NCBI RefSeq assembly: GCF_014132355.1 | Contig: NZ_BLZO01000071.1 | Coordinates: forward strand, 1-64,000 | DNA: 64,000 bases | DNA from: Okeania sp. KiyG1 | GTDB taxonomy: Bacteria > Cyanobacteriota > Cyanobacteriia > Cyanobacteriales > Microcoleaceae | Direction of reading: 5' to 3' | In this document: in pieces, positions 3,670 to 30,839 of the stretch | Numbering within the stretch: position 1 is the first letter of the stretch | Layout of the letters: every line of letters starts with the position of its first letter | Position numbers and translations under genes: made by a program | The notes under the pieces: model-generated | Seen by the model: only the letters and a program-made list of their open reading frames with translations | What the model was told of the DNA's origin: nothing | Databases searched by the model: none

Positions 3670-3927
3670 TTAGGGTTTGCTGAAAAAAGTATAGTGTGGG
3701 GACCCACCCCTAACCCCTCTCAGTAGGGGAAGTGTGGGGAGGGTGGGGAGGAGAAAGTAGGAACAGAGAAAGTAGGAGGAATAATTTTAGCTGTATCTTT
3801 ACTGTGTTTGTCTGCCTATCCTAACTTTTTGGCCACTCTAGCTGAAAAGTTGGCACTTTTTTTCCCTCCAAAAAGGCTAAAACTTTGATCTGTCAGTGCT
3901 TTGAGATTTAATCAGCCAACCCTAGTT
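3670..3927. mobile_element. MITE, TTAGGGTTTGCTGA family, copy 1
   Basis: The ends TTAGGGTTTGCTGA and TCAGCCAACCCTAGT form terminal inverted repeats. The interior has a G/C-skewed CCCACCCCTAACCCCT tract and the conserved CAAAAAGGCTAAA segment seen in all copies. It lies 1 bp downstream of the lpdA stop and may supply 3' RNA structure. Confidence 0.7.
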
Positions 3928-4217
3928 ATAGCAGGGAACAGGGAACAGCGGTGCGACCCCGCGACGACGATAGTCGCACCTGGTAGCGCACTCCTGTGAG
4001 GGAACAGTAGGAAAAATATGTCCCTGTCTAAGGTTTATCATCAGCATAAATTTTAACCAACTTGTTCTTTGCTATAGTTATTAATTTCAAGAAAATTGTT
4101 ATATTTAGTCTCCATAACTGATATAGCAATTTAGTATTCAGTAATCATTTTTTTTGTTTCTCAGGATTTAATTTTGCTTTGAAAGTTAGTAACTATAACT
4201 TTAGCAAATTAAGAAAT

Positions 4218-4308
4218 CAGGACTTACGCAGAGACTCTACATATAGCGAGGGCGAATACCATTCGCCCCTACAAATGGTGGTTTCAAAGTCAATTTGTGT
4301 AAGTCCTG
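4218..4308. mobile_element. MITE-like element with CAGGACTTAC ends
   Basis: The 91-bp sequence is bounded by CAGGACTTACGCAGA and GTGTAAGTCCTG. Its centre carries one copy of the GGGCGAAT...ATTCGCCC palindrome that is amplified into an array at 15632-16299. This is the only copy of these ends I see in the window. Confidence 0.5.
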
Positions 4309-4319
4309 GAAATGCTATA

Positions 4320-4920
4320 CTACCAAACATTGAAAATTTAAAGACTACAAAAAGAATCATTCTGAAAAAGCTTTGTAATAAGAGAGAATTCAAAATCAAT
4401 AATTATCTCGCGTATTGCATCCAGTTTGATGATTGATACCCTGATTAATGAGAAAATACGATCATTGATAATAGGGCACAATGAAGACTGGAAGGAAAAG
4501 ATAAACTTAGGGAAAAGAAACAATCATAATTTTGTATGTATCCCCTATAACAGGTTAATTGAAATGTTATCTTATAAAGCCAAGATGGTAAGGATAAATG
4601 TAATTATTACAGAATAATCTTATACCTCAAAAGCAAGTTTTATAGATAATGATTTTCTTCCAGTGTACAAGAAAGACAAAAAAAATCAAATCATTTTTTC
4701 AGGAAAAAGAGTAAAGCGATGCAGCGCGGCCAAAGGGGGTTTCCCCCATGAGCGACTGCATCAAGACAAAGAAGTTTGTATCGTACCGCCAACAAAGGAT
4801 TAATCAATGAGTTGCGTGAACGGTTCTCTAAACATTATTAGAAAAGCAGCTCCCTTTTGTCTTTGACCATGAAAAGCGAGGGTGTTGTAGTGCCTCCTCC
4901 GGAGGAGCTGCGCTAACACC
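4320..4920 (+). pseudogene. Decayed TnpB (IS200/IS605, IS891/IS1341 type)
   Basis: Consecutive fragments in shifting frames read LCNKREFKINNYL, then SLIIGHNEDWKEKINLGKR and FVCIPYNRLIEMLSYKA, then a TAA replacing the Glu codon of ITE(E)SYTSKASF, then FLPVYKKDKKNQIIFSGKR and finally VNGSLNIIRKAAP. This order matches the C-terminal half of TnpB. A palindromic repeat (CGATGCAGCGCGG...GACTGCATCAAGAC) interrupts it near 4718-4768. It has at least two frameshifts and a nonsense codon, so it is not functional. Confidence 0.7.
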
Positions 4921-7235: not shown

Positions 7236-7466
7236 ATGGAAGCAATACCAGTTCCCTCCCGTATCCATTATGAACTACTACTTCAGTTATTAGAAAAAAA
7301 GACGATTTTAGCAGTAGACTATAATACAAAGCAGCACGCAAAAGCACGGGAACTTATTGTAACTGTGAGAAAAGCTTTAGCGCTACAAAAACAATTAGAA
7401 GACATTTGCAAGCAAGCAAATTTACCCATTGAATATCAATGGTCTCTTAATGAAACAGAAAAATAA
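7236..7466 (+). CDS. Small conserved cyanobacterial protein (probably DUF5340)
   Basis: The 76-residue protein begins MEAIPVPSRIHYELLLQLLE, is mostly helical by eye, and has no membrane segment or signal peptide. The pattern PxPSxIHYELLLQLLE fits my memory of the cyanobacterial family DUF5340; no function is known. It stands alone, with about 1 kb of gene-free DNA on each side, yet keeps a clean frame, which argues that it is real. Confidence 0.7.
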   Translation: MEAIPVPSRIHYELLLQLLEKKTILAVDYNTKQHAKARELIVTVRKALALQKQLEDICKQANLPIEYQWSLNETEK

Positions 7467-8464
7467 ATATTACAGCGTATTTGGTGGTTTATGAAGCACA
7501 GTAGGGAGAAGAGAGTAGGGAGTAGGGAATAAGAAAGAACATAGTTTTTTCCATCGGCGAGTATGCGTTTTAAATAAGCTTTCATTATTGGGACACTAAA
7601 CTACTGTGCCACATTTACATGAAATCTGCTGTAAGTGCATTAAAGCAAGCAAAAAAAAGGTATCTATGAGCTTAATAATACTCAAAAATTAATATCTAAT
7701 ACTTTTGAGAACCCGAAGGTGGAATTGTTCAAGAATTTAGAATTTAGAATGCGCGAATTTAGAATTACCTCTCTTTGAAAAGAAGAGGATTGACGAACAG
7801 GAAAATTTTTATTTATTATCCCCTTAAAAGGGGAGGCTTTAAACCACAATATTTCGGTAATTAATAACTTCACTAAATAAAACCTAGAATAAAATTACCA
7901 ATGGATAATTAATTAACAATCATTCATTAATTAAACTTGAAAGTCTCTTGATTTTAAGAATCAATAAAAAAGCACACACTTCCTTTTTTTGATCAATCCT
8001 CTATTTCAAAGGAAGAAGTAATGATAAATTCTTGATTTCGCCTATCCAATTAATACAATTATTAAGGAATTAACTATTTATTAATTAGCTCAATGTAATA
8101 TTTTTAGTAATGATTAGGGGAATTTAATACAGTTAGTATTTCCGCGATAATTTGTGAAATTATTCAAAATCATTACTTATAACAACAAAAACTTTGTGAT
8201 TACTTTTAACTTCTAACTTTTACCAGATAAATAGTTGCTTTAATCATTGAATTATCCGTTAATATCTTAAATGTAAATTCTATAGAAAGAAAAATCAAAA
8301 ATCTCCTAAAAAAATAATTAAAATTAAATAACTCCTCAAATAACTAAAACTTTATTTTTATTAAGTGGGAATCTTAAAGAAAAATAAGTTTTTTAAATAA
8401 AATGCTTCTCAATCAATAAACATATAAACTAACTCAAGTAAAACAAAACAAAGGAATAGAAATA
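7467..8464. other. AT-rich gap, no gene seen
   Basis: Apart from the element at 7763-7865 there is only very AT-rich sequence. The region just upstream of 8465 probably includes the promoter of the aminotransferase gene, but no clear boxes can be assigned. Confidence 0.55.
7763..7865. mobile_element. MITE-like element, TTACCGAATAATT family, copy 1
   Basis: Its arms ATTACCTCTC...AAGAGGATTGA and CCCTTAAAAGGGGAGGC...TTTCGGTAA match the copies at 20800, 42040, 45708, 56302 and 62517. Each copy has two internal hairpins with an AGAGG/CCTCT core. Confidence 0.6.
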
Positions 8465-13702: not shown

Positions 13703-14404
13703 CTAAGTTTCCCTCAAAACATACCCAATACCACGGACTGTTTGAATTAATCGCTTCTCACCTTCTCGTTCAATTTTCAGCCGTAGATATCTAATATATA
13801 CCTCAATTACATTAGACTCACCCAAAAAATCATAACCCCAAACATTTTCCAAAATTTGTTCCCGACTCAATACTTCGCGAGGATGCTCCATTAAAAACCT
13901 TAATAACTCAAATTCCTTCATAGTCAACTCAATACTACGACCATGGCACAAGACCCGCCGAGTAGCCAACTCTAAAATTAAATTCCCAAATCTCAATTGG
14001 TCCTTTTCTGCTGTAGTGGGTTGTAAATAAAAACGGACTAATTTTAAGAATTCATCACTGCGATAAGGCTTAAGAAAATAGTCATCAGCTCCAGACTCCA
14101 GACAAGCAACTCGGTCATCAACTTGGTCACGAGCCATCAACAATAATATAGGCATATTATTACCCATTTCCCTCAGATGGCTACACAATGATAGTCCAGA
14201 CTCACCAGCCAACATTCGGTCAATTACAATCAAAGCAGGTTTAAGTTCTATTGCCTTGTCAAGACCCGCAGTAGAGTTAGTAGCTACAACTGGATGATAG
14301 CCTGACTCTTCTAGATCCAAACTCACATATTGGGCGAGAATTTCATCAGTCTCTATTAGTAAGACTGAACGGTCTCGATCTATAGTTAAGGTAGTCATAG
14401 CCAT
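13703..14404 (-). CDS. nblR: OmpR/PhoB-type response regulator, NblR-like
   Basis: The 233-residue two-domain regulator has a receiver domain (residues ~12-125: acidic pair D20/E21, phospho-acceptor Asp62 in VIDRML, Lys in FLKPYRSDE) followed by an OmpR winged helix with LTMKEFELLRFLMEHP and the wing TVRGIGYVLRE. The N-terminus and the atypical DRMLAGESGLSLC phosphorylation loop are like NblR, the cyanobacterial regulator of phycobilisome breakdown and stress survival. The family is certain; the NblR assignment is from memory. No histidine kinase gene is adjacent. MTTLTIDRD (two codons in) is an equally possible start. Confidence 0.85.
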   Translation of the reverse strand: MAMTTLTIDRDRSVLLIETDEILAQYVSLDLEESGYHPVVATNSTAGLDKAIELKPALIVIDRMLAGESGLSLCSHLREMGNNMPILLLMARDQVDDRVACLESGADDYFLKPYRSDEFLKLVRFYLQPTTAEKDQLRFGNLILELATRRVLCHGRSIELTMKEFELLRFLMEHPREVLSREQILENVWGYDFLGESNVIEVYIRYLRLKIEREGEKRLIQTVRGIGYVLRET

Positions 14405-14410
14405 AAGATT

Positions 14411-14562
14411 TTAGTTGTGAGATATTGGAGACTTTTAGGCAACAGCTCATCTGGCAACAGGGAATAAGGAAGAAACGAATACATAAGAATAAGATAACTG
14501 CTATATTCTATACTTTAAAGGAACACCTCAATTCTCACATCTGATTCGGTGATTCCTATATT
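14411..14562. mobile_element. MITE-like element, TATAGCAAT family, degenerate copy
   Basis: It shares the subterminal TTGTGAGATATTGGAGACTT and CAATTCTCACATCTGATTC segments with the element at 24173-24338. The outer TATAGCAAT tips are eroded. It lies in the promoter region of the NblR-like gene. Confidence 0.55.
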
Positions 14563-15579: not shown

Positions 15580-15631
15580 TCTAAAAAATCTAGTTCAGGG
15601 TGGTCATACCGTTTCACGGAAGTCAAAAGTA

Positions 15632-16299
15632 GGGGCGAATGGCATTCGCCCGTACAAAAGGCGAATGGCATTCGCCCGTACAAAAAGGCGAATGGCATTC
15701 GCCCGTACAAAAGGCGAATGGCATTCGCCCGTACAAAAGGCGAATGGCATTCGCCCGTACAAAGGCGAATGGCATTCGCCCGTACAAAGGCGAATGGCAT
15801 TCGCCCGTACAAAAGGCGAATGGCATTCGCCCGTACAAAAGGCGAATGGCATTCGCCCGTACAAAAGGCGAATGGCATTCGCCCGTACAAAGGCGAATGG
15901 CATTCGCCCGTACAAAGGCGAATGGCATTCGCCCGTACAAAGGCGAATGGCATTCGCCCGTACAAAAGGCGAATGGCATTCGCCCGTACAAAAGGCGAAT
16001 GGCATTCGCCCGTACAAAAGGCGAATGGCATTCGCCCGTACAAAAGGCGAATGGCATTCGCCCGTACAAAGGCGAATGGCATTCGCCCGTACAAAGGCGA
16101 ATGGCATTCGCCCGTACAAAAGGCGAATGGCATTCGCCCGTACAAAGGCGAATGGCATTCGCCCGTACAAAGGCGAATGGCATTCGCCCGTACAAAAGGC
16201 GAATGGCATTCGCCCGTACAAAGGCGAATGGCATTCGCCCGTACAAAGGCGAATGGCATTCGCCCGTACAAAAGGCGAATGGCATTCGCCCGTACAAAA
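15632..16299. repeat. Tandem array of 26 palindromic 24-27-bp units
   Basis: Each unit is the palindrome GGCGAATGGCATTCGCC (8-bp arms, 1-nt centre) followed by CGTACAAA with one to three extra A. I count 26 units with essentially no substitutions; only the A-run length varies. Because the units contain no stop in any frame, long open frames of 197-250 codons appear on both strands; these are artefacts. Single dispersed relatives are at about 4250, 31340, 35765 and 48805-48855. Confidence 0.95.
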
Positions 16300-16538
16300 G
16301 TCATGCATTAAGATTTTATGGACTAATAACTTTAAAGTTCCAGTAATTTCAGGCAATTATTTCACATATATAGCTTGTATAGTTTACAACTATTTTTTTT
16401 TGACCAAAAAATAAGGTCTCAAGGCTCTGGTTTTCCTAGGTCATGCTGCGCAAACAGCTAGAGGTACTGATAAGGCAGTTCCTCCGGAGGAGGCTAACTG
16501 ATAACTGAGATGATAACCTTAAAAATTGGTATTAAACT

Positions 16539-21786: not shown

Positions 21787-21907
21787 AAGCATGCATATTA
21801 TCAAAAGTTGAAACTACAAAAGTAACTCCAGGTAAAAAAACAGGAAAAAATACGCCATCGCATTTCCGATCTATAATTATTTTGTTTTTTTGATAAATTT
21901 CAAGAAT

Positions 21908-22005
21908 GACCCACTAATTTATCCCGTAAATATTTAAGTAAATATTTAATCCGATCGCGCAATTTAGCTGTCTCCTCAAATTCCAATTTGTTCGCTGCTT
22001 TTTTA
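21908..22005 (-). pseudogene. uvrB 3'-end fragment (copy C, most diverged)
   Basis: CCACTAATTTATCCCGTAAA and CGCAATTTAGCTGTCTCCTC match the end of uvrB (26924-27030), with a small internal duplication of GTAAATATTTAA and several substitutions. Only about 95 bp of similarity remain. It lies about 4.9 kb from the intact gene, on the far side of the two-gene module. Confidence 0.7.
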
Positions 22006-22041
22006 AGAATTATTTACTAGAGACTTAATAAATTTATAGAT

Positions 22042-23261
22042 TCAAGATTTTTTTCTATCTATTCGGAAAAAATCAGTCAATAAACCGATTATACTTTGCA
22101 GCTCTATTGGGAGTTGTGAAGGTGTTGTAACAACTTGAGAATAAGCATGAAACTCAAATAAGCTAGCATTTTTAAACAAGGAATTCATATTAGTAGTTTT
22201 AGCAAAATAATCTGACAAAATTTCAACAGCTCTATCCTTAGTTTGTTTATCAACTTCTCTTTTAAGGGTTGTAGCAATACTTTTATTTACTATTACTGAA
22301 GATGCTAATTTAATAGCAGCATTAGTTATGCTTTCTGTACGTTCTTTACCTCTCTCTCCATAATTAAATCCATTCTGTAAAATTTCAATTCTAGTTTTTA
22401 CATCAACAGAAATAAATCCTTTAATAACAAAGTCAGTACAAATTAGTAAAAAGGTTGTATTGATATATAAAAGCCTTAGAAGACTGATATTATTATCTGC
22501 TTTTGTCATAGTTTGTTCTAGAAAAAACTTTATTTCTTGGAGATATTCATTACAACCATTAAAGTTCATATCGCTCAAAAGCCTACCTTTTGACATCTGA
22601 TATCTTCTTTTATAATCATCTTCTTTTTTTTCAACATTTTGAGTCAATATATCTGAAATAAAATTTTATTCTGTAATTCTATTTGAGTTAACTCTTCGAG
22701 AAATTATTTGTTTTAACACATCACCAGTTATCACAATAATATTATTTGCCAAACCAAATTTATGAGCTTCATCTTTTGTGGATGCTGTAGCAACAATAGC
22801 TCTTTCTAATTTTAAAGTAGTCTGTAAACCCTTAGCCCAAATTATTCTTTTAAATGCTCTAGGATTCTTTTTGTTTTTAATGTCAACATTAGTCCGTTTT
22901 CTAGAAAAAGCTGAAGCTTTACTATATAACCACAAATCAACATCTGTAATGTCAATTTGATTATACGCAAATGGAAGTGAACGAACTACAAAATAACCTT
23001 GCTCAATAAAATAGTTCCTAAGTGCTTCTTCTGCTGTTTCACCGTAAGCATTCAGCCGTCAGCTAACAGCTATCAGCTATGAGTTATTAGCTCATTATCA
23101 GCTCAAAAGAGGAATTAGTCTTCGAGGAGAATTAAAACTTATAAAAAAAATGTCTTCAGCTAACCTTAGTAATTTCTTGAATATGTTCAAAAGCTGATAG
23201 CTGAATGCTAATAGCTGAATGCCTACGTTTCACCTTTGCCAAGTTCTTGCTTGATAATCAA
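22042..23261 (-). pseudogene. Module gene B: putative PD-(D/E)XK nuclease-like protein, disrupted
   Basis: Removing the MITE at 23044-23226 and one 8-bp duplication joins IIKQELGKGET to AEEALRNYFIEQGYFVVRSL in frame. The frame continues through QIDITDVDLWLYSKAS and RTNVDIKNKKNPRAFKRI to RRVNSNRITE, where a single TAA precedes NFISDILTQNVEKKEDD in the same frame and 200 more residues to IDRKKS. The VDLW...VDIKNKK arrangement fits a PD-(D/E)XK restriction-endonuclease-like core (Asp, then D-x-K). The C-terminal part is helical and unrecognised. A TTG start directly abuts the stop of gene A, suggesting translational coupling. The function is unknown; a defence role is inference. Confidence 0.6.
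23044..23226. mobile_element. MITE, GTAAGCATTCAG family, copy 1, with 8-bp target duplication
   Basis: The ends GTAAGCATTCAGC and GCTGAATGCCTAC bound 183 bp. They are flanked by the exact direct repeat GTTTCACC (23036-23043 and 23227-23234). Excising the element plus one repeat restores the frame of module gene B. Confidence 0.85.
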
Positions 23262-23624
23262 CTATTTACCACTTCTCAACACATCTAATAATTCTGCAAT
23301 ATTTTTTCCCGTTTGTGAGTTTTGTGACTTTCTTTCGTAAGTTCTATTTTGCTCAGGAGCTATATAGTTTGTTATTGAAGCACTAGGAATTGAAATAAGT
23401 GCTTCAGTGCTAATATCACCATCATTAATTACTTTTAAAGCTAATTCTCCAACATCTTTTTTCAAAAGTTTCATATTGTACATATTTGAATCTTTTAGAG
23501 AGACTTTAACCTGAATTACACCACGAAGTTCTAACACTTTATAGTCGTTTCCAATAGCTGTTGCTGGACCAACCCATTCTCCATCAATTAGCTTTTCCAT
23601 AAGTCTCTGAATCATTGTAATTTT

Positions 23625-23836
23625 GTAAGCATTCAGCGGTCAGCTATCAGCTATCAGCTATGAGTTATTAGCTCATTATCGCACCTAAGTCTCTAAGGAG
23701 TGAAATATATTTGCTTCTGCATTCCGCGCAAAAGAAAAAGGTTATCAGATAACCTTAGTAAGTCCTGTACGTTTAAAAGCTGATAACGCAGTTCCTCTGT
23801 AAGAGGCTAACTGAATGCTAATAGCTGAATGCTTAC
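23625..23836. mobile_element. MITE, GTAAGCATTCAG family, copy 2, with 8-bp target duplication
   Basis: The ends GTAAGCATTCAGC and GCTGAATGCTTAC bound 212 bp, flanked by GTAATTTT on both sides (23617-23624, 23837-23844). Excision joins RGKIT to MIQRLMEKL of module gene A in frame. Confidence 0.85.
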
Positions 23837-24172
23837 GTAATTTTTCCTCTATAAGAATGACTTTTCGTCATGCCAAATGTTAAAGATGTTACAAATAATT
23901 TAGCTAAATCAAATGCGTCTTCAACAGCAGAGTTACCAAACTTTGAAAATGCTGATAGTTTGGTTACAAATTTGTGTCTACCTAGTTCATTGGTCACAGT
24001 ATTGACATCATATATACCTATAGAATTTAATTTCCTAAATAGTTTCTCTTCAATAATTTATTGTGCGATATCTAAAGGCAAACAGCTTTGATATTTCAGA
24101 AGTTCATCTAGTTCCTTCATTCTCCTCGTTTCTGATTCAGATAAATAAGAACAGACGGCATTAATTTTCCTT

Positions 24173-24338
24173 ATATAGCAATCAGGAATCAGATGTGAGA
24201 ATTGAGGTGTTTTTTTTAAAGCATAGAATATAGCAGTTTTTTTATTCTTATGTATTCGTTTCTTCCCTCCATACCTATTCCCTCCATACCTAGAACAAAA
24301 GTCTCCAATATCTCACAACTCAAATCATATTGCTATAT
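24173..24338. mobile_element. MITE-like element, TATAGCAAT family, inserted in module gene A
   Basis: The ends ATATAGCAAT and ATTGCTATAT bound 166 bp; the target duplication is probably TA or TATA. On either side, protein-like sequence of gene A continues (GNLLRHDDI before, KINAVCSYL after). Confidence 0.75.
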
Positions 24339-25100
24339 CATCATGCCTAAGTAAATTACCATTAAATAAAATTTTTCTAGAATCATCTACACTAGCTGCA
24401 TCTATAAATCCAATTTCTTCTGAACCAATTAGCAAATCATCAGTTTTTTTATTAGATATTTTGTAAGTGTCACTTATATATTCTTTTGCTTTTTATACCC
24501 CTGTGGTAATTCAGAAATTTTTTCTGATATATCTATAACAGCAATTTCAGTATTATCTGGATTTTAATCATAAAAAATCGATGTTGTATGTTCCAATGTA
24601 GCAGAAGTAGTCAGTCCTAGAATATGAATTTCAGTAGAGCTGGAGCTGATTAATTTTTGCTTTTCAAGTTTATCTAATATAACTGGCAGCTCCATTTTTA
24701 AGCTAATATGAGCTGCCTTAGCTAAGGTGTTTAACCTCTCCTTAGATATAGACTTTTCTTCAGAAGCAGCCAAACTAGATAGTAATAAACCACACTTTCC
24801 CGCAAGATTAATAGTCTCATAATCATTGGCAGCATATTTCATATCTTGGAGTTTATCAGTATGATGAATAATCCAAGCACCTTGAGTTCTTTCATCCATT
24901 TCCATACTTTTATCAATGATTTAGTTTTAAGATTAACTCTATCCTAAGATAGCCTTATTTAATTTAGCCACTTCTATATAAGCATTTGTGAGATTCAATC
25001 TTTAACATTACTCGTTTTCGACATAATTTTCACCTGACAATAATAATAAGTCTGACAAAATTATTCAAATAACTAATACCTAAAACTTACTCCCTATTAC

Positions 25101-25250
25101 CCACTAATTTATCCCGTAAATATTTAATTCTATCCCGCAATTTAGCCGCCTCTTCAAACTCTAAATTTTTCGCCGCTTCCTTCATCTGAGTTTCTAACTT
25201 TTTAATCAACTCTGGAACATCATCCAAAGATAATTAATCTACCTGTTTGT
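25101..25250 (-). pseudogene. uvrB 3'-end fragment (copy A)
   Basis: About 145 bp closely match the terminal part of uvrB (Uvr domain codons), up to CATCCAAAGATAATTAATC, where similarity stops. It is near-identical to copy B at 26019. Confidence 0.85.
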
Positions 25251-25270
25251 CAAATAATAATTAAAGTATT

Positions 25271-25759
25271 TTATTCCTGAATAATATCTGATACTTCTTT
25301 TTGATAATCGTTATAGTGTTTCACTTTTGTATAAATCTTAAGTGCATTTGTCGTCCAATTTACAATAACGAGTGAACCCAAAATTACAAATATTTTTGAT
25401 AGAGAATTTGCTGACATACTAGCAGGAAAAAGAGAATCAATAACAGTAATATATAAAATTATTACAACAGCTAAACTTATAGTCTCTAAGATATTAGCTA
25501 AAAGATACTCAACCAGCATCATTCTATTTTCATAATATTGTTTAACCTTTTGATACTCTTGCTTGATTTTTATAATTCTCTTTTGTTTTAATTGAGAATT
25601 GCGAGATGAAAGAAATTTCTCAATTTGGGAATTGCGAGATGAGAGAAATTTATCAATTTTGGGAGTTAACAAATTGGCAAGTATGGCAAATGGAACAGAA
25701 AGAAATAATCCCAGAAAAAATTTATAGTCAGTTAAAATATCAGTAAGAGTTTTTAACAT
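25271..25759 (-). CDS. Unknown 162-residue membrane protein, duplicate 1
   Basis: The protein has three predicted membrane segments: residues ~12-32 (FLGLFLSVPFAILANLL), ~84-108 (ANILETISLAVVIILYITV) and ~122-142 (SKIFVILGSLVIVNW). A basic, coiled-coil-prone loop contains an internal duplication FLSSRNSQIEKFLSSRNSQL followed by KQKRIIKIKQEYQKVKQYY. I do not recognise the family. The small size, the topology and the neighbouring uvrB repeats suggest an accessory gene. It differs from the second copy at only two residues (Gly/Glu near 17, Ile/Val near 104). AGGAG-like bases are weak; the ATG is clear. Confidence 0.7.
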   Translation of the reverse strand: MLKTLTDILTDYKFFLGLFLSVPFAILANLLTPKIDKFLSSRNSQIEKFLSSRNSQLKQKRIIKIKQEYQKVKQYYENRMMLVEYLLANILETISLAVVIILYITVIDSLFPASMSANSLSKIFVILGSLVIVNWTTNALKIYTKVKHYNDYQKEVSDIIQE

Positions 25760-26018
25760 GAAAGTTCTCCATTAAAAACTGAACATTAGACAACAAGTAA
25801 GACAATAATTTTCTTTTCAGAAAAGACTTACAGCGAATTCCACCTTGGTCAGGTAAACCCGCGCGAGCAAGGTGCTCGCACTGGGAACATTCAATTATTA
25901 ATATGTGTACTTTATATACTTGGAATCTGCTGTAAATATCTGACTAACCTGACAATTACCATATTACTAATCTTCTGTTCTTAATTTAGAATTGTTCTAG
26001 TACAGAAATCTATTTCAC

Positions 26019-26155
26019 CTAACGACCAACTAATCTATCCCGCAATTTAGCCGCCTCTTCAAACTCTAAATTTTTCGCCGCTTCCTTCATCTGAGTTTCT
26101 AACTTTTTAATCAACTCTGGAACATCATCCAAAGATAATTAATCTACCTGTTTGT
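26019..26155 (-). pseudogene. uvrB 3'-end fragment (copy B)
   Basis: It includes the uvrB stop context CACCTAACGACCAAC but lacks 21 bp present in uvrB and copy A, deleted between short TAAT/CTATCCCG repeats. The remaining bases match to CATCCAAAGATAATTAATC. Confidence 0.85.
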
Positions 26156-26175
26156 CAAATAATAATTAAAGTATT

Positions 26176-26664
26176 TTATTCCTGAATAATATCTGATACT
26201 TCTTTTTGATAATCGTTATAGTGTTTCACTTTTGTATAAATCTTAAGTGCATTTGTCGTCCAATTTACAATAACGAGTGAACCCAAAATTACAAATATTT
26301 TTGATAGAGAATTTGCTGACATACTAGCAGGAAAAAGAGAATCAATAACAGTAACATATAAAATTATTACAACAGCTAAACTTATAGTCTCTAAGATATT
26401 AGCTAAAAGATACTCAACCAGCATCATTCTATTTTCATAATATTGTTTAACCTTTTGATACTCTTGCTTGATTTTTATAATTCTCTTTTGTTTTAATTGA
26501 GAATTGCGAGATGAAAGAAATTTCTCAATTTGGGAATTGCGAGATGAGAGAAATTTATCAATTTTGGGAGTTAACAAATTGGCAAGTATGGCAAATGGAA
26601 CAGAAAGAAATAATTCCAGAAAAAATTTATAGTCAGTTAAAATATCAGTAAGAGTTTTTAACAT
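26176..26664 (-). CDS. Unknown 162-residue membrane protein, duplicate 2
   Basis: This is the tandem copy of the gene 905 bp away, with the same three membrane segments and FLSSRNSQ internal repeat. Residue differences are FFLELFLSV and ILYVTV. Because both copies keep intact frames while the neighbouring module decays, the duplication is recent or both are maintained. The gene lies directly downstream of uvrB on the same strand and might be co-transcribed with it. Function unknown. Confidence 0.7.
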   Translation of the reverse strand: MLKTLTDILTDYKFFLELFLSVPFAILANLLTPKIDKFLSSRNSQIEKFLSSRNSQLKQKRIIKIKQEYQKVKQYYENRMMLVEYLLANILETISLAVVIILYVTVIDSLFPASMSANSLSKIFVILGSLVIVNWTTNALKIYTKVKHYNDYQKEVSDIIQE

Positions 26665-26923
26665 GAAAGTTCTCCATTAAAAACTGAACATTAGACAACA
26701 AGTAAGACAATAATTTTCTTTTCAGAAAAGACTTACAGCGAATTCCACCTTGGTCAGGTAAACCCGCGCGAGCAAGATGCTCGCACTGGGAACATTCAAT
26801 TATTAATATGTGTACTTTATATACTTGGAATCTGCTGTAAATATCTGACTAACCTGACAATTACCATATTACTAATCTTCTGTTCTTAATTTAGAATTGT
26901 TCTAGTACAGAAATCTATTTCAC

Positions 26924-28921
26924 CTAACGACCAACTAATTTATCCCGTAAATATTTAATTCTATCCCGCAATTTAGCCGCCTCTTCAAACTCTAAATTTT
27001 TTGCCGCTTCCTTCATCTGACTTTCTAACTTTTTAATCAACTCTGGAACATCATCCAAAGACAACTCATCCACCTGTTCATAAACCTCTTCCAACTGTTG
27101 AGAATTTAAACGCCGCGACACATCCAAAAACGCCAAAATTGCATTACTTTGTTTCTTAACAATAGGCTTCGGTGTAATATTATTCATCTTATTATATGCC
27201 AACTGAATACCTCGCCTTCTTTCCGTTTCATCTATGGCTTTAATCATACTATCCGTCAAATTATCAGCATATAAAATAGCCTGACCCCGGACGTGACGCG
27301 CCGCCCTACCAATAGTCTGAATTAAAGAACGTTCCGCCCGTAAAAATCCCTCCTTATCCGCATCTAAAATAGCTACTAAAGAAACCTCCGGCAAATCCAA
27401 ACCTTCCCGTAATAAATTAACCCCAATTAAAACATCAAACTCTCCCTCTCTCAGCCCCTGTAAAATCTCAATTCTCTGAATAGAATTAATCTCCGAATGC
27501 AAATAACGAACCCTCACATTTTGCTCCTGCAAATATTCAGTCAAATCTTCAGCCATTCGCTTAGTTAAAGTCGTAATTAAAACCCTCTCTTCCAGCTTAA
27601 CCCTTTCCCTAATTTCACCCAATAAATCATCAACCTGACCCTCAGTCGGACGCACAAAAATTTCCGGGTCAACAACACCAGTCGGACGAATAATTTGCTC
27701 AACAATTCTATCCTCAGACTTTTCTATTTCCCAATTTCCAGGAGTAGCAGAAACCAAAATACATTGATTAACCTTTTGCCAAAATTCCTCTGATTTTAAA
27801 GGTCGATTATCCGCAGCACTAGGCAAACGAAATCCATGCTCAATTAAAACTCTTTTCCTAGCTTGGTCGCCATTATACATTCCGCGAATTTGTGGAACAG
27901 TCACATGAGATTCATCAATAATTAATAACCAATCTTCCGGAAAATAATCAATCAAACATTCCGGCGGTTCTCCTGCTTTTCTACCTGCTAAATGCCGAGA
28001 ATAATTTTCCACCCCATTACAATATCCCACCTCCCGCAGCATTTCCAAATCATATCTACAACGCTGTTCCAAACGTTGAGCTTCTAACAACTTTCCTGCC
28101 TTTTCTAACTCCTCTAATTGCTCATCTAATTCTGCTTCAATATCATTACAAGCTGCTTCTAACCTTTCTTCAGGAGTAACAAAGTGACGCGCCGGATAAA
28201 CATTTAAAGACTCTAAACTTTGGATAATCTTTCCAGTTACAGGGTCAACATAACGAATAGCATCTATTTCATCCCCAAAAAATTCTACCCGAATAACTCT
28301 ATCCTCATAAGCAGGTCCGATTTCCAAAACATCACCCTTAACTCTAAACTTTCCTCGACCTAAATCTAAATCATTTCTGCTGTATTGAACTGTCGCTAAA
28401 TCTCTCAAAATTTGTCGTTGATTAATTTCTTCTCCCACTTGCAAAGAAATAGCAGCTTTTAAATATTCAGCAGGCATTCCCAAACCATAAATACAACTAA
28501 TAGAAGCAACAACAATCACATCTCGACGTTCAAAAAGAGACCGAGTTGCTGAGTGACGCAACATATCAATTTCATCATTAATAGAAGCAGTTTTTTCTAT
28601 ATATGTATCCGTCACCGGAATATAAGCTTCCGGTTGATAATAATCGTAATAACTAACAAAATACTCAACCGCATTATTAGGAAAAAAATCCCTTAACTCA
28701 TTACACAATTGAGCAGCCAATGTTTTATTATGAGCCAAAACTAACGTCGGTCTGCCAACATTTTCAATTACAGAAGCTATAGAAAAAGTCTTACCCGTAC
28801 CAGTAGCTCCTAGTAATGTTTGAAAATTATGTCCGGTTTGAATATTAGAAGTTAATTGAGCGATCGCTCCTGGTTGGTCACCAGTAGGTTGAAAGGGAGC
28901 TTGCAAACAAAAATTTCCCAT
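26924..28921 (-). CDS. uvrB: Excinuclease ABC subunit B
   Basis: The 665-residue damage-recognition helicase-like subunit of nucleotide excision repair has Walker [10 protein letters not shown] near residue 40, followed by the [11 protein letters not shown] beta-hairpin, IIDESH (DEAD-type box), [33 protein letters not shown] and [11 protein letters not shown]-terminal UVR domain ([20 protein letters not shown]) completes it. The length is normal and the frame intact, ending LVGR. The 3' end is repeated three more times downstream, see findings. Confidence 0.98.
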
Positions 28922-29068: not shown

Positions 29069-30389
29069 TTGTATATTTTAATTTCAAAGTTAGGATTAAT
29101 ACCACTATATTCAGCCAACTTATCCAACCCTCAAAAACTCGGTAAAAATCGCAGTGCATTTTTGATTGACAACTATATTTTATAATAGAATCTCCATCAA
29201 AGAGGGAGTAGGAGGAAAAATTGATAATTTATGTACAATAATTAATTTTATTTTTGATTATTGGAGATATCTGTTGTATATTTTAATTTCAAAGTTAGGA
29301 TTAATACCACTATATTCAGCCAACTTATCCAACCCTCAAAAAACTCGGTAAAAATCGCAGTGCATTTTTGATTGACAACTATATTTTATAATAGAATCTC
29401 CACAAAAGAGAGAGTAGGAGAAATAATTGATAATTTATGTACAATAATTAATTTTATTTTTGATTATTGGAGATATCTGTTGTATATTTTAATTTCAAAG
29501 TTAGGATTAATACCACTATATTCAGCCAACTTATCCAACCCTCAAAAACTCGGTAAAAATCGCAGTGCATTTTTGATTGACAACTATATTTTATAATAGA
29601 ATCTCCACAAAAGAGAGAGTAGGAGAAATAATTGATAATTTATGTACAATAATTAATTTTATTTTTGATTATTGGAGATATCTGTTGTATATTTTAATTT
29701 CAAAGTTAGGATTAATACCACTATATTCAGCCAACTTATCCAACCCTCAAAAAACTCGGTAAAAATCGCAATTTTATAATAGAATCTCCATCAAAGAGTG
29801 AGTAGGAGGAAAAATTGATAATTTATGTACAATAATTAATTTTATTTTTGATTATTGGAGATATCTGTTGTATATTTTAATTTCAAAGTTAGGATTAATA
29901 CCACTATATTCAGCCAACTTATCCAACCCTCAAAAAACTCGGTAAAAATCGCAGTGCATTTTTGATTGACAACTATATTTTATAATAGAATCTCCACAAA
30001 AGAGAGAGTAGGAGGAAAAATTGATAATTTATGTACAATAATTAATTTTATTTTTGATTATTGGAGATATCTGTTGTATATTTTAATTTCAAAGTTAGGA
30101 TTAATACCACTATATTCAGCCAACTTATCCAACCCTCAAAAAACTCGGTAAAAATCGCAGTGCATTTTTGATTGACAACTATATTTTATAATAGAATCTC
30201 CATCAAAGAGGGAGTAGGAGGAAAAATTGATAATTTATGTACAATAATTAATTTTATTTTTGATTATTGGAGATATCTGTTGTATATTTTAATTTCAAAG
30301 TTAAGATTAATACCACTATATTCAGCCAACTTATCCAACCCTAAAAAATATTGGTAAATATCAAAGTGCATTTTTGATTAACAACTATA
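29069..30389. repeat. Tandem array of ~205-bp units, about 6.5 copies
   Basis: Each unit holds TTGTATATTTTAATTTCAAA, CTATATTCAGCCAACTTATC, AATCGCAGTGCATTTTTGAT, TAGAATCTCCATCAAAGAG and ATTATTGGAGATATCTG. The interval between copies is 205-206 bp, except for one unit missing about 22 bp near 29770. Half of each unit is an AGACATCTCC-family MITE. Six similar open frames of 61-74 codons follow the period and are artefacts. Confidence 0.95.
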
Positions 30390-30839
30390 GTTTTTTTATC
30401 TGGGATGTGGAGACCAAGTGCTATGAAAAAGGTATAAGGGGAATAAGGAATAGGGAATAGTAAAGTAGGAAAATGGGATTAGACTGACACAGCTAATTTT
30501 ATGCATTAGATTATTGGGATGGGGGTGGGTTCATCTAATTGGTTAAGATTCATTAATTTAACGTGGAACCCGCCCCTACTATTGCAACATTTTAGGTGTG
30601 TCAGTCCAGTAGTCCTATAGCAATTCTAAATTAGTTGTGACAATTCTTATAGTAGTTAATTTCAAGTGAAAACATGAGTAAATTCTGACTCCTGACTCCT
30701 GTACTCCTGTACTTCTTCTTTTTGACTTCTTGCTTTTAACTTCTTACTTTTAACTTCTGTAGTTCTTACTTTTGACTTTTGACTTTTGACTTTTGACTTT
30801 TAAAATTTTGACTTTTGACTTTTAAAATCAGGGTTTCTC
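30390..30839. other. Interval with dispersed repeats and GACTTTT microsatellite
   Basis: It contains the inverted copy (30516-30597) of the 80-bp repeat at 9631 and a TTTTGACTTTTGAC microsatellite (about 30715-30825), also seen at 53040-53092. No gene is seen. Confidence 0.55.

Follow-up and report, generated by a model that had tools for sequence, protein, structure and literature searches.

Downstream of the intact uvrB gene of Okeania sp. KiyG1 (G000), pieces of the gene's own 3' end alternate with accessory genes, which raises the question of how such an arrangement is built beside a housekeeping gene. We addressed it in a window of 64,000 nucleotides (the whole stretch of DNA analysed, to which all coordinates refer) and by comparison with other genomes and viral contigs. 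In the reading that we consider probable, the DNA 3' of uvrB is an array of layers that homologous recombination, and no site-specific recombinase, assembled and rearranged. The locus would then be a readable record of accessory-gene build-up beside a housekeeping gene with no visible recombinase, and a testable case of cargo exchange via short core-gene repeats.

Displaced copies of the uvrB 3' end and the genes between them

Intact uvrB (26924..28921, minus strand) codes for 665 amino acids, and its last ~157 bp (26924-27080) constitute the repeated tail, with a 3' end here termed R-type. Three partial copies of this end (tails A, B and C) lie 3' of the gene on the same strand with cargo between them, as a preliminary description of the DNA had reported; this was confirmed by searching the whole genome for the uvrB end and by self-comparison of the window. 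Tail A (25097..25250, minus strand) matched the uvrB end with 95% identity over 149 bp (E 4.5e-63), tail B (26019..26155, minus strand) with 95% over 119 bp (E 5.1e-48), its own last 20 bp matching at E 0.011, and tail C (21885..22005, minus strand) with 73% identity (E 1.5e-10). No strong match was found outside the locus in the 11 Mb genome, the next best (E 0.038) being at chance level. This confinement to the uvrB locus ruled out that the tails are a generic dispersed repeat, and the stepwise accretion proposed in the preliminary description withstood that check. An assembly artefact is unlikely, since identical junctions occur in the congeners G004 and G001. In the self-comparison of the window (repeats of at least 60 bp at E 1e-6, rows at 15.5-16.5 kb aside), uvrB was the only core gene seen with a displaced 3' end; the remaining repeats comprised a tandem array, repeats between genes, and ORFs resembling one another, of pentapeptide type or of a type that we take to be TnpB-like.

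The three tails differ in their ends. Tail A starts ~20 bp past the stop codon of a small membrane-protein gene (M) and has its own, A-type 3' end. Tail B, described earlier simply as a copy of the uvrB end, is indeed one, of hybrid make-up: its 5' part is like tail A and its 3' end like intact uvrB, with ~21 bp deleted near the end. It is the hybrid repeat at the joint of a tandem duplication with a unit of 905 bp, which bears out the earlier suggestion that the A/B step was a simple duplication. The uvrB-like part of tail C spans ~21905-22004, and a native flank carries the copy to ~21885. This tail preserves the native uvrB terminus together with roughly 25-45 bp of flank found in relatives without tails: the uvrB ends of G003, G011, G012 and G026 match tail C and its flank resembles theirs, and no displaced tail was seen in the uvrB flanks fetched from these four genomes. 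Because tail C keeps the native terminus and flank, the cargo between it and uvrB was added. Tail C lies distal to all cargo, as an older tail shifted 3' of newer cargo would, and its native end and flank support the view that it is the oldest tail and that accretion at the uvrB 3' end was stepwise.

Between uvrB and tail A the cargo consists of two copies of M (26176..26664, 162 aa, and 25271..25759, both on the minus strand) with 99.6% DNA identity. Each is preceded by an R-type spacer, one (26665..26923, minus strand) forming the flank and spacer 3' of uvrB and the other (25760..26018, minus strand) being 99.6% identical to it. The distal part of the spacer 3' of uvrB includes a dispersed repeat, which belongs to the M spacer and not to the tail. 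The first ~75 bp of the R-type flank are also found 3' of uvrB in G017, which belongs to another genus, there without M. Between tails A and C lies the two-gene module noted previously; it is present in a decayed form. Gene 1 (23262..24905, minus strand) was matched by judgement to a 417 aa counterpart in L178, and gene 2 (22042..23043, minus strand) contains one internal stop, being open in G004 (345 aa). A D-x-D...D-x-K pattern, as we read it in gene 2, suggests a nuclease fold. In addition, three small inserted elements without assigned strand are absent from G004: one with inverted-repeat ends (24177..24333) and two with GTAAGCATTCAGC-type ends (23625..23824 and 23044..23226). Searches with Pfam, NCBIfam and PADLOC models gave no match from which M or the module could be named.

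The uvrB region in other genomes

M was present in three of the 60 genomes searched (G000, G001 and G004), all of them with displaced tails, and was absent at E 1e-4 from the congeners G002, G003 and G005 and from 54 other genomes. Two weak matches (29% and 24%) within much larger ORFs, among 291 genomes of the order other than G000 itself, were not accepted as relatives, and none were found in viral contigs. Module gene 2 was restricted to G000 among the 291 genomes drawn from the order, and it was also found in G004. Thus the accretion reading also survived comparison with relatives that might have carried the same cargo without tails. The A-type flank gave strong matches in three of 62 genomes, again only G000, G001 and G004, and short matches in four more (E 0.001-0.005).

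At least two congeners, G000 and G004, have tails and cargo in alternation, with junctions common to both; in G001, one or more displaced tails are present. The order in G004 is uvrB-M-t2-M-t3-module-t4-M', that is, uvrB with three tails and three M copies. Its module/tail junction is that of the window, and the tail beyond has a different end. Tail t2 is a hybrid, with its 5' part from t3 and its 3' part from G004 uvrB. The first two M copies of G004 are 96.3% identical, versus 82-84% between G000 and G004. The third, M', has no tail 3' of the gene, shares 87-89% identity with its two sister copies and is the nearest relative of G001 M (95.8%), which points to a tangled history of the layers. 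A search for a donor, in which M or the module would come directly after an intact uvrB, found none.

Beyond the genus, relatives were compared for other cargo bounded by uvrB tails, as the preliminary description had proposed, and G200 showed different cargo followed by a displaced tail, an independent case. A related scar was present in G123. Both genomes belong to a genus of another family, and the cargo at their uvrB end is a GTPase module. The duplicated part comprises the uvrB end plus, as read in G123, the next gene, Uma2; the uvrB-Uma2 pair also occurs in G245 (L185). Since a GTPase module occupies the same gene end in another family, this end of uvrB may be a hotspot more widely among cyanobacteria. 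Because the tail query missed tail C at E 1e-7, the counts of displaced tails are minimum values. Among the 291 genomes, G170, G177 and G210 gave two tail-query matches each; G170 carries full-length uvrB twice, on separate contigs, and no second uvrB fragment was found in G177 or G210 with the whole protein as query (E 1e-6). The UvrB query matched at least 80 loci in the genome contigs.

These comparisons bear on the simplest alternative, in which M was always located 3' of uvrB, the tail and M multiplied as a unit, and the module arrived later by chance. The 905 bp duplication and the three M copies of G004 fit it well, and unequal recombination between direct repeats does account for tail B, for t2 of G004 and for the M copies. 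However, such recombination cannot alone import the module. Moreover, M is missing from three congeners and the 54 other genomes at E 1e-4, tail C has a native end without the M spacer, the end type of A differs from that of B, and G200 is left unexplained. We therefore regard tandem duplication on its own as highly improbable.

Gene body, tail and possible site-specific integration

The gene body and the tail of G000 uvrB gave different affinities. The first 1800 bp were 3.4-4.1% distant from four congeners, 6.2% from G003 and 6.1% from G017. The best gene-body tree placed G000 with those four congeners (support 68/93, unstarred), and grouping its gene body with G017 was rejected (AU p 6.6e-05). 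The six congeners did not form one clade in that tree, G003 lying outside, and a single clade was not rejected (p 0.45). The tail was 4.3% distant from both G017 and tail A, and 7.9-15.8% from the five congeners. Placing it with the congeners' tails was rejected (AU p 0.014), and constraining the A tails and that of G000 to group with the congeners' uvrB tails gave p 0.0445, a marginal indication of foreignness, the groups in both tests having been picked after the distances were seen. The tail tree was built on 149 columns and has no starred branch. The foreign-looking stretch of the intact uvrB tail varies in length between genomes. As the G000 tail is nearly identical to tail A (only three differing sites, at tail positions 20-151), exchange with the genome's own tail A can, as judged from the sequences, explain it with no import needed.

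The discordant tail of a uvrB gene that remained intact would also be expected if an integrase, since lost or acting in trans, had inserted elements site-specifically with the 3' end of uvrB serving as attB, the elements supplying a replacement tail. The direct orientation of the tails and the compact cargo between them agree with this, as does a relative of the module in one viral contig, placed between two tyrosine integrase genes. The identical junctions of G000 and G004 would fit such an event too, and common ancestry would explain them. However, no recombinase was detected among the cassette ORFs scanned, and none of the eight PF00589 (tyrosine recombinase) matches in the genome lies on contig C71, in line with the earlier remark that no integrase is visible. 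The starts of the displaced tails vary, from about -85 and about -155 to about -410 bp from the stop (the last in G200), leaving no constant crossover core; the start is constant within an event type (A in G000, G001 and G004; C in G000 and G004). Hybrid tails and variable replaced lengths demand homologous exchange in any case. Among the candidates listed from viral contigs, four places matched the uvrB tail and none of them was a displaced tail: in L174-L176 the match is where a whole uvrB-like gene ends, and in L177 it is an ORF with a UVR motif. As the general process, site-specific integration that rebuilds the target each time, as envisaged in the preliminary description, was thus not supported, and we consider it unlikely.

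Proposed assembly of the array and comparison with known systems

Homologous recombination was preferred because tail starts differ, foreign-looking lengths vary and several tails are hybrid; tail B and t2 of G004, together with the likeness of the G000 tail to tail A, can be read as its footprints. A layer would consist of a uvrB tail followed by cargo, either M or the two-gene module, and each new layer would separate the uvrB body from the older tail, the latter then moving downstream and decaying. The founding step may have been a one-sided homologous integration or an insertion with long target duplication. For the former, foreign or circular DNA with a relative's uvrB tail and cargo would have recombined at uvrB via one homologous end, either by homology-facilitated illegitimate recombination or by a single crossover leaving a long duplication. 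No clear homology was seen at the cargo/tail joints, and a donor molecule was not found. Once present, the direct repeats of 85-155 bp would permit RecA-type exchange by which cargo is duplicated, deleted or swapped, and which may also have rewritten the last ~40 codons of G000 uvrB. On this view, a tail in decay can become a source of sequence for uvrB itself. Several gains and losses must be assumed for the layered explanation. A bolder version, which we put forward only tentatively, is that the uvrB 3' end serves as a recombinase-free docking platform: cargo would travel between cyanobacteria joined to a uvrB tail that supplies the homology for targeting, pile up in cassettes and, in doing so, overwrite the C-terminal end of the host UvrB. 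If true, a core-gene tail would take the place of integron attachment sites, and RecA that of the integrase.

Insertion with long target duplication, reportedly described by Nobusato et al. in 2000, could also act as a full explanation, the host uvrB tail being duplicated beyond the cargo so that all tails descend from the host gene. The inserts are flanked by long and variable direct repeats (about 85-155 bp, and 409 bp in G200), and the repeat of G200/G123 reaches from the uvrB end into Uma2 as read in G123, a gene that also follows uvrB in G245. The excerpts of two reports available describe the pattern for restriction-modification genes (PMC3031569, PMC1643837), with accessory genes inserted between long variable direct repeats and tandem amplification between the repeats; compared with what those excerpts describe, the uvrB locus differs in having several layers stacked on one housekeeping gene end, and tails with differing ends and recombinant structure. 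Against this explanation, the G000 tail and tail A are no less similar to another genus than to uvrB of the congeners, which host duplication alone would not predict; later exchange could blur this signal. As an account of the whole array it appears doubtful.

The array has partial parallels in other systems. Prophage e14 brings a replacement 3' end to icd and leaves the old end displaced; displaced ends are likewise seen at uvrB. The prophage has an integrase gene of its own and a fixed site of integration, neither of which was seen at uvrB. For the T6SS effector-immunity displacement arrays of Vibrio cholerae, homology-facilitated illegitimate recombination has been proposed, and strings of orphaned Rhs 3' regions are mentioned alongside them in the portion of the article consulted (PMC5361080). 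As described there, new cargo likewise enters at the 3' end of a gene, anchored by upstream homology, and displaces the older parts in the downstream direction; in those arrays, however, the gene itself is the changing cargo, whereas here conserved uvrB is the anchor and the cargo consists of unrelated downstream genes. In the open-licence literature we found no report on uvrB as an integration site (with an integrase or a genomic island), on uvrB gene fragments in cyanobacteria, or on repeats that flank islands in cyanobacteria. Tails are not the only partial copies of uvrB, since G003 carries a 5' fragment of the gene (residues 1-105) on a separate contig.

The uvrB-tail array and its direction of growth

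In Okeania sp. KiyG1 (G000), the intact uvrB gene (26924-28921) is followed by a spacer, a small membrane-protein gene, here called M (26176-26664), a displaced copy of the uvrB 3' end, tail B (26019-26155), another spacer, a second copy of M (25271-25759), tail A (25097-25250), the decayed remains of a two-gene module (about 24905 to 22042) and tail C (about 22005 to 21885), all on the minus strand. This array is real and unusual. A DNA query with the uvrB end gave three copies in the whole genome (E 4.5e-63, 5.1e-48 and 1.5e-10), the top match away from the locus having an E of 0.038. Self-comparison of the window for repeats of at least 60 bp, outside 15.5-16.5 kb, revealed no second core gene with a displaced end. 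A tandem array with a unit of ~206 bp (29069-30393) lies immediately upstream of uvrB, and a dense short-repeat array of GCGAATGGCATTCGCC type, in which several frames of both strands are long open, occupies 15604-16356.

UvrB was present in 58 of 60 searched genomes (own genome counted), and a 50 aa tail query at E 1e-7 matched in 55 of 62 genomes of the family. With this query, extra tails were found in three of the 62, all of the same genus: KiyG1 and its congeners G001 and G004. The same three genomes were the only ones among the 60 to contain M, which was found only at the uvrB locus and only in members of the genus Okeania. The order in G004 is uvrB-M-t2-M-t3-module-t4-M' (t2, t3 and t4 being displaced tails, M' a third M copy), with no tail downstream of M', and in G001 a separate contig bears M, tail A and a shortened module. 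The congeners G002, G003 and G005 have a single uvrB end with different genes downstream, and a relaxed tail search of the fetched ~10 kb detected no tails in them. G003 additionally carries, near the end of another contig (689; L132:9912-10246), a fragment of the uvrB 5' region that covers residues 1-105 at 87% identity. Farther downstream of uvrB in G004 (L122:9003-10957) there is an AAA ATPase gene (top PADLOC match PDC-M07A) with an unnamed partner.

Three types of uvrB terminus could be distinguished among the tails. The native type (ATTCTTGAAATTTATCA... or near it) was seen in G003 and in the relatives G011, G012 and G026, and tail C ends in it as well, the similarity running on into about 25 to 45 bp of flank. 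The R-type (TTAGGTNAAATAGATTTCTGTACTAG...) ends the intact uvrB and tail B of KiyG1, the uvrB of G001, the uvrB, t2 and t4 of G004, and the uvrB of G017, a member of another genus that has this end without M. The A-type is that of tail A and its counterparts, and its flank had strong matches in 3 of the 62 family genomes (KiyG1, G001 and G004). Directly at the uvrB stop of G002, G005 and the relative G022 lies a short element beginning GTAAGCATTCAGC, which appears to provide the stop codon. Because of its native-type terminus, tail C is read as the old gene end, cargo having apparently been added between it and uvrB; the stepwise accretion at the uvrB 3' end proposed in the preliminary description stands.

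Cargo genes

M is predicted, by reading of its sequence, to encode a small membrane protein, and domain searches gave no family assignment. The copies are 99.6% identical within KiyG1; in G004 (L122:3001-3465, 3912-4376 and 7318-7773) the first two share 96.3% identity with each other and 87-89% with M'. Copies of KiyG1 and G004 share 82-84% identity, and M of G001 is nearest to M' of G004 (95.8%). Between KiyG1 and G004, M had a dN/dS of 0.62-0.98 and the uvrB body one of 0.13, whereas their dS values were alike (0.12-0.18 for M, 0.126 for the uvrB body). M thus evolves fast but was probably already at the locus before the two species split.

Among 291 genomes sampled from the order, module gene 2 was found only in KiyG1 itself; G004, outside this sample, also bears it. 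The decayed module in the window contains three small insertions missing from G004, in which gene 2 has an open frame and gene 1 is divided between two frames. The GTAAGCATTCAGC element is inserted twice in the decayed module (23044-23226 and 23625-23824), and another element, ~165 bp long and bounded by inverted repeats, lies at 24173-24336 and, in opposite orientation and 81% identical, at 14397-14561. A viral contig carries a counterpart of the module as a two-gene operon with overlapping frames (417 and 344 aa; L178:3751-6032), flanked by two tyrosine integrase genes, its gene 2 being 41% identical to that of G004. Relatives of gene 2 were detected by tblastn in 7 of 72,556 plasmid records; a weaker one (24% identity), on a Mesorhizobium plasmid, likewise follows an overlapping gene and has restriction-modification genes nearby. 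Neither Pfam, NCBIfam nor PADLOC gave gene 2 a name; its D-x-D...D-x-K pattern reads as nuclease-like, and the neighbouring genes suggest that the module may have a defence role.

Tail exchange and mode of integration

At informative sites, the 5' part of tail B resembles tail A and its 3' end resembles intact uvrB, and t2 of G004 is first t3-like and then like the uvrB of G004. Both are what unequal crossing-over of neighbouring tails would leave. Over the first 1800 bp, the KiyG1 uvrB is 3.4-4.1% different from those of G001, G002, G004 and G005, 6.2% from that of G003 and 6.1% from that of G017. The gene-body tree groups it with the former four (support 68/93, unstarred). The best tree splits the six congeners, but testing did not reject their forming a single clade (p 0.45); a grouping of KiyG1 with G017 was rejected (p 6.6e-05). 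The tail of the KiyG1 gene is 4.3% different from that of G017, 4.3% from tail A and 7.9-15.8% from those of the five congeners. Constraining it among the congeners' tails was rejected (AU p = 0.014), as was constraining both it and the A tails there (p = 0.0445), and, because the tested groups were picked after the distances had been seen and the tail tree has 149 columns and no starred branch, these tests provide moderate evidence that the KiyG1 tail is set apart from the congeners' tails. It differs from tail A at 6 of 139 sites, 3 of them among the first seven compared. This is most simply explained by an exchange in which tail A sequence took the place of most of the KiyG1 uvrB tail; import from another genus is possible. 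The joint between module and uvrB tail falls at the same base in KiyG1 and G004, and the tail beyond it has the native end in KiyG1 and the R-type end plus M' in G004, which would be explained by shared descent followed by exchange, or by two insertions at the same position.

The tails might also be read as traces of an integrase acting at the gene's 3' end. This reading is not supported: no recombinase was found among the scanned cassette ORFs, none of the 8 tyrosine recombinase matches in the genome lies on the array's contig, and the start points of the tails vary from event to event. The hybrid tails require homologous recombination. These observations together favour founding events by one-sided homologous integration, after which exchange would have been mediated by the repeats. 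Insertion with long target duplication is a close rival to one-sided integration and hard to separate from it. Both processes are described in passages of PMC5361080, PMC3031569 and PMC1643837, and natural competence of a filamentous cyanobacterium is reported in PMC9429965.

A separate case in another family

The tail query matched in 274 of 291 genomes of the order, and more than once in five (KiyG1, G170, G177, G200 and G210); among the latter four, a second uvrB end close to uvrB was found in G200 only, and G200 was also the only one with a displaced tail among 20 genomes searched in its family. There, uvrB is followed by a gene that we take to be Uma2-type, a three-gene module in opposite orientation and then the displaced uvrB end (409 bp), which shares 88.8% identity with the G200 uvrB and 90.0% with that of G123, a genome of the same genus. 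The module, which lies downstream of uvrB at L160:5321-9567 and L161:3696-7994 in this genus, codes for a dynamin-type GTPase, a Double-GTPase 2 and a third protein whose sequence reads as coiled coil. G200 is an independent case of cargo followed by a displaced uvrB tail. G123 has kept uvrB, Uma2 and the GTPase module, and at the matching place only a short uvrB scar, followed by a second Uma2 end, can be read.
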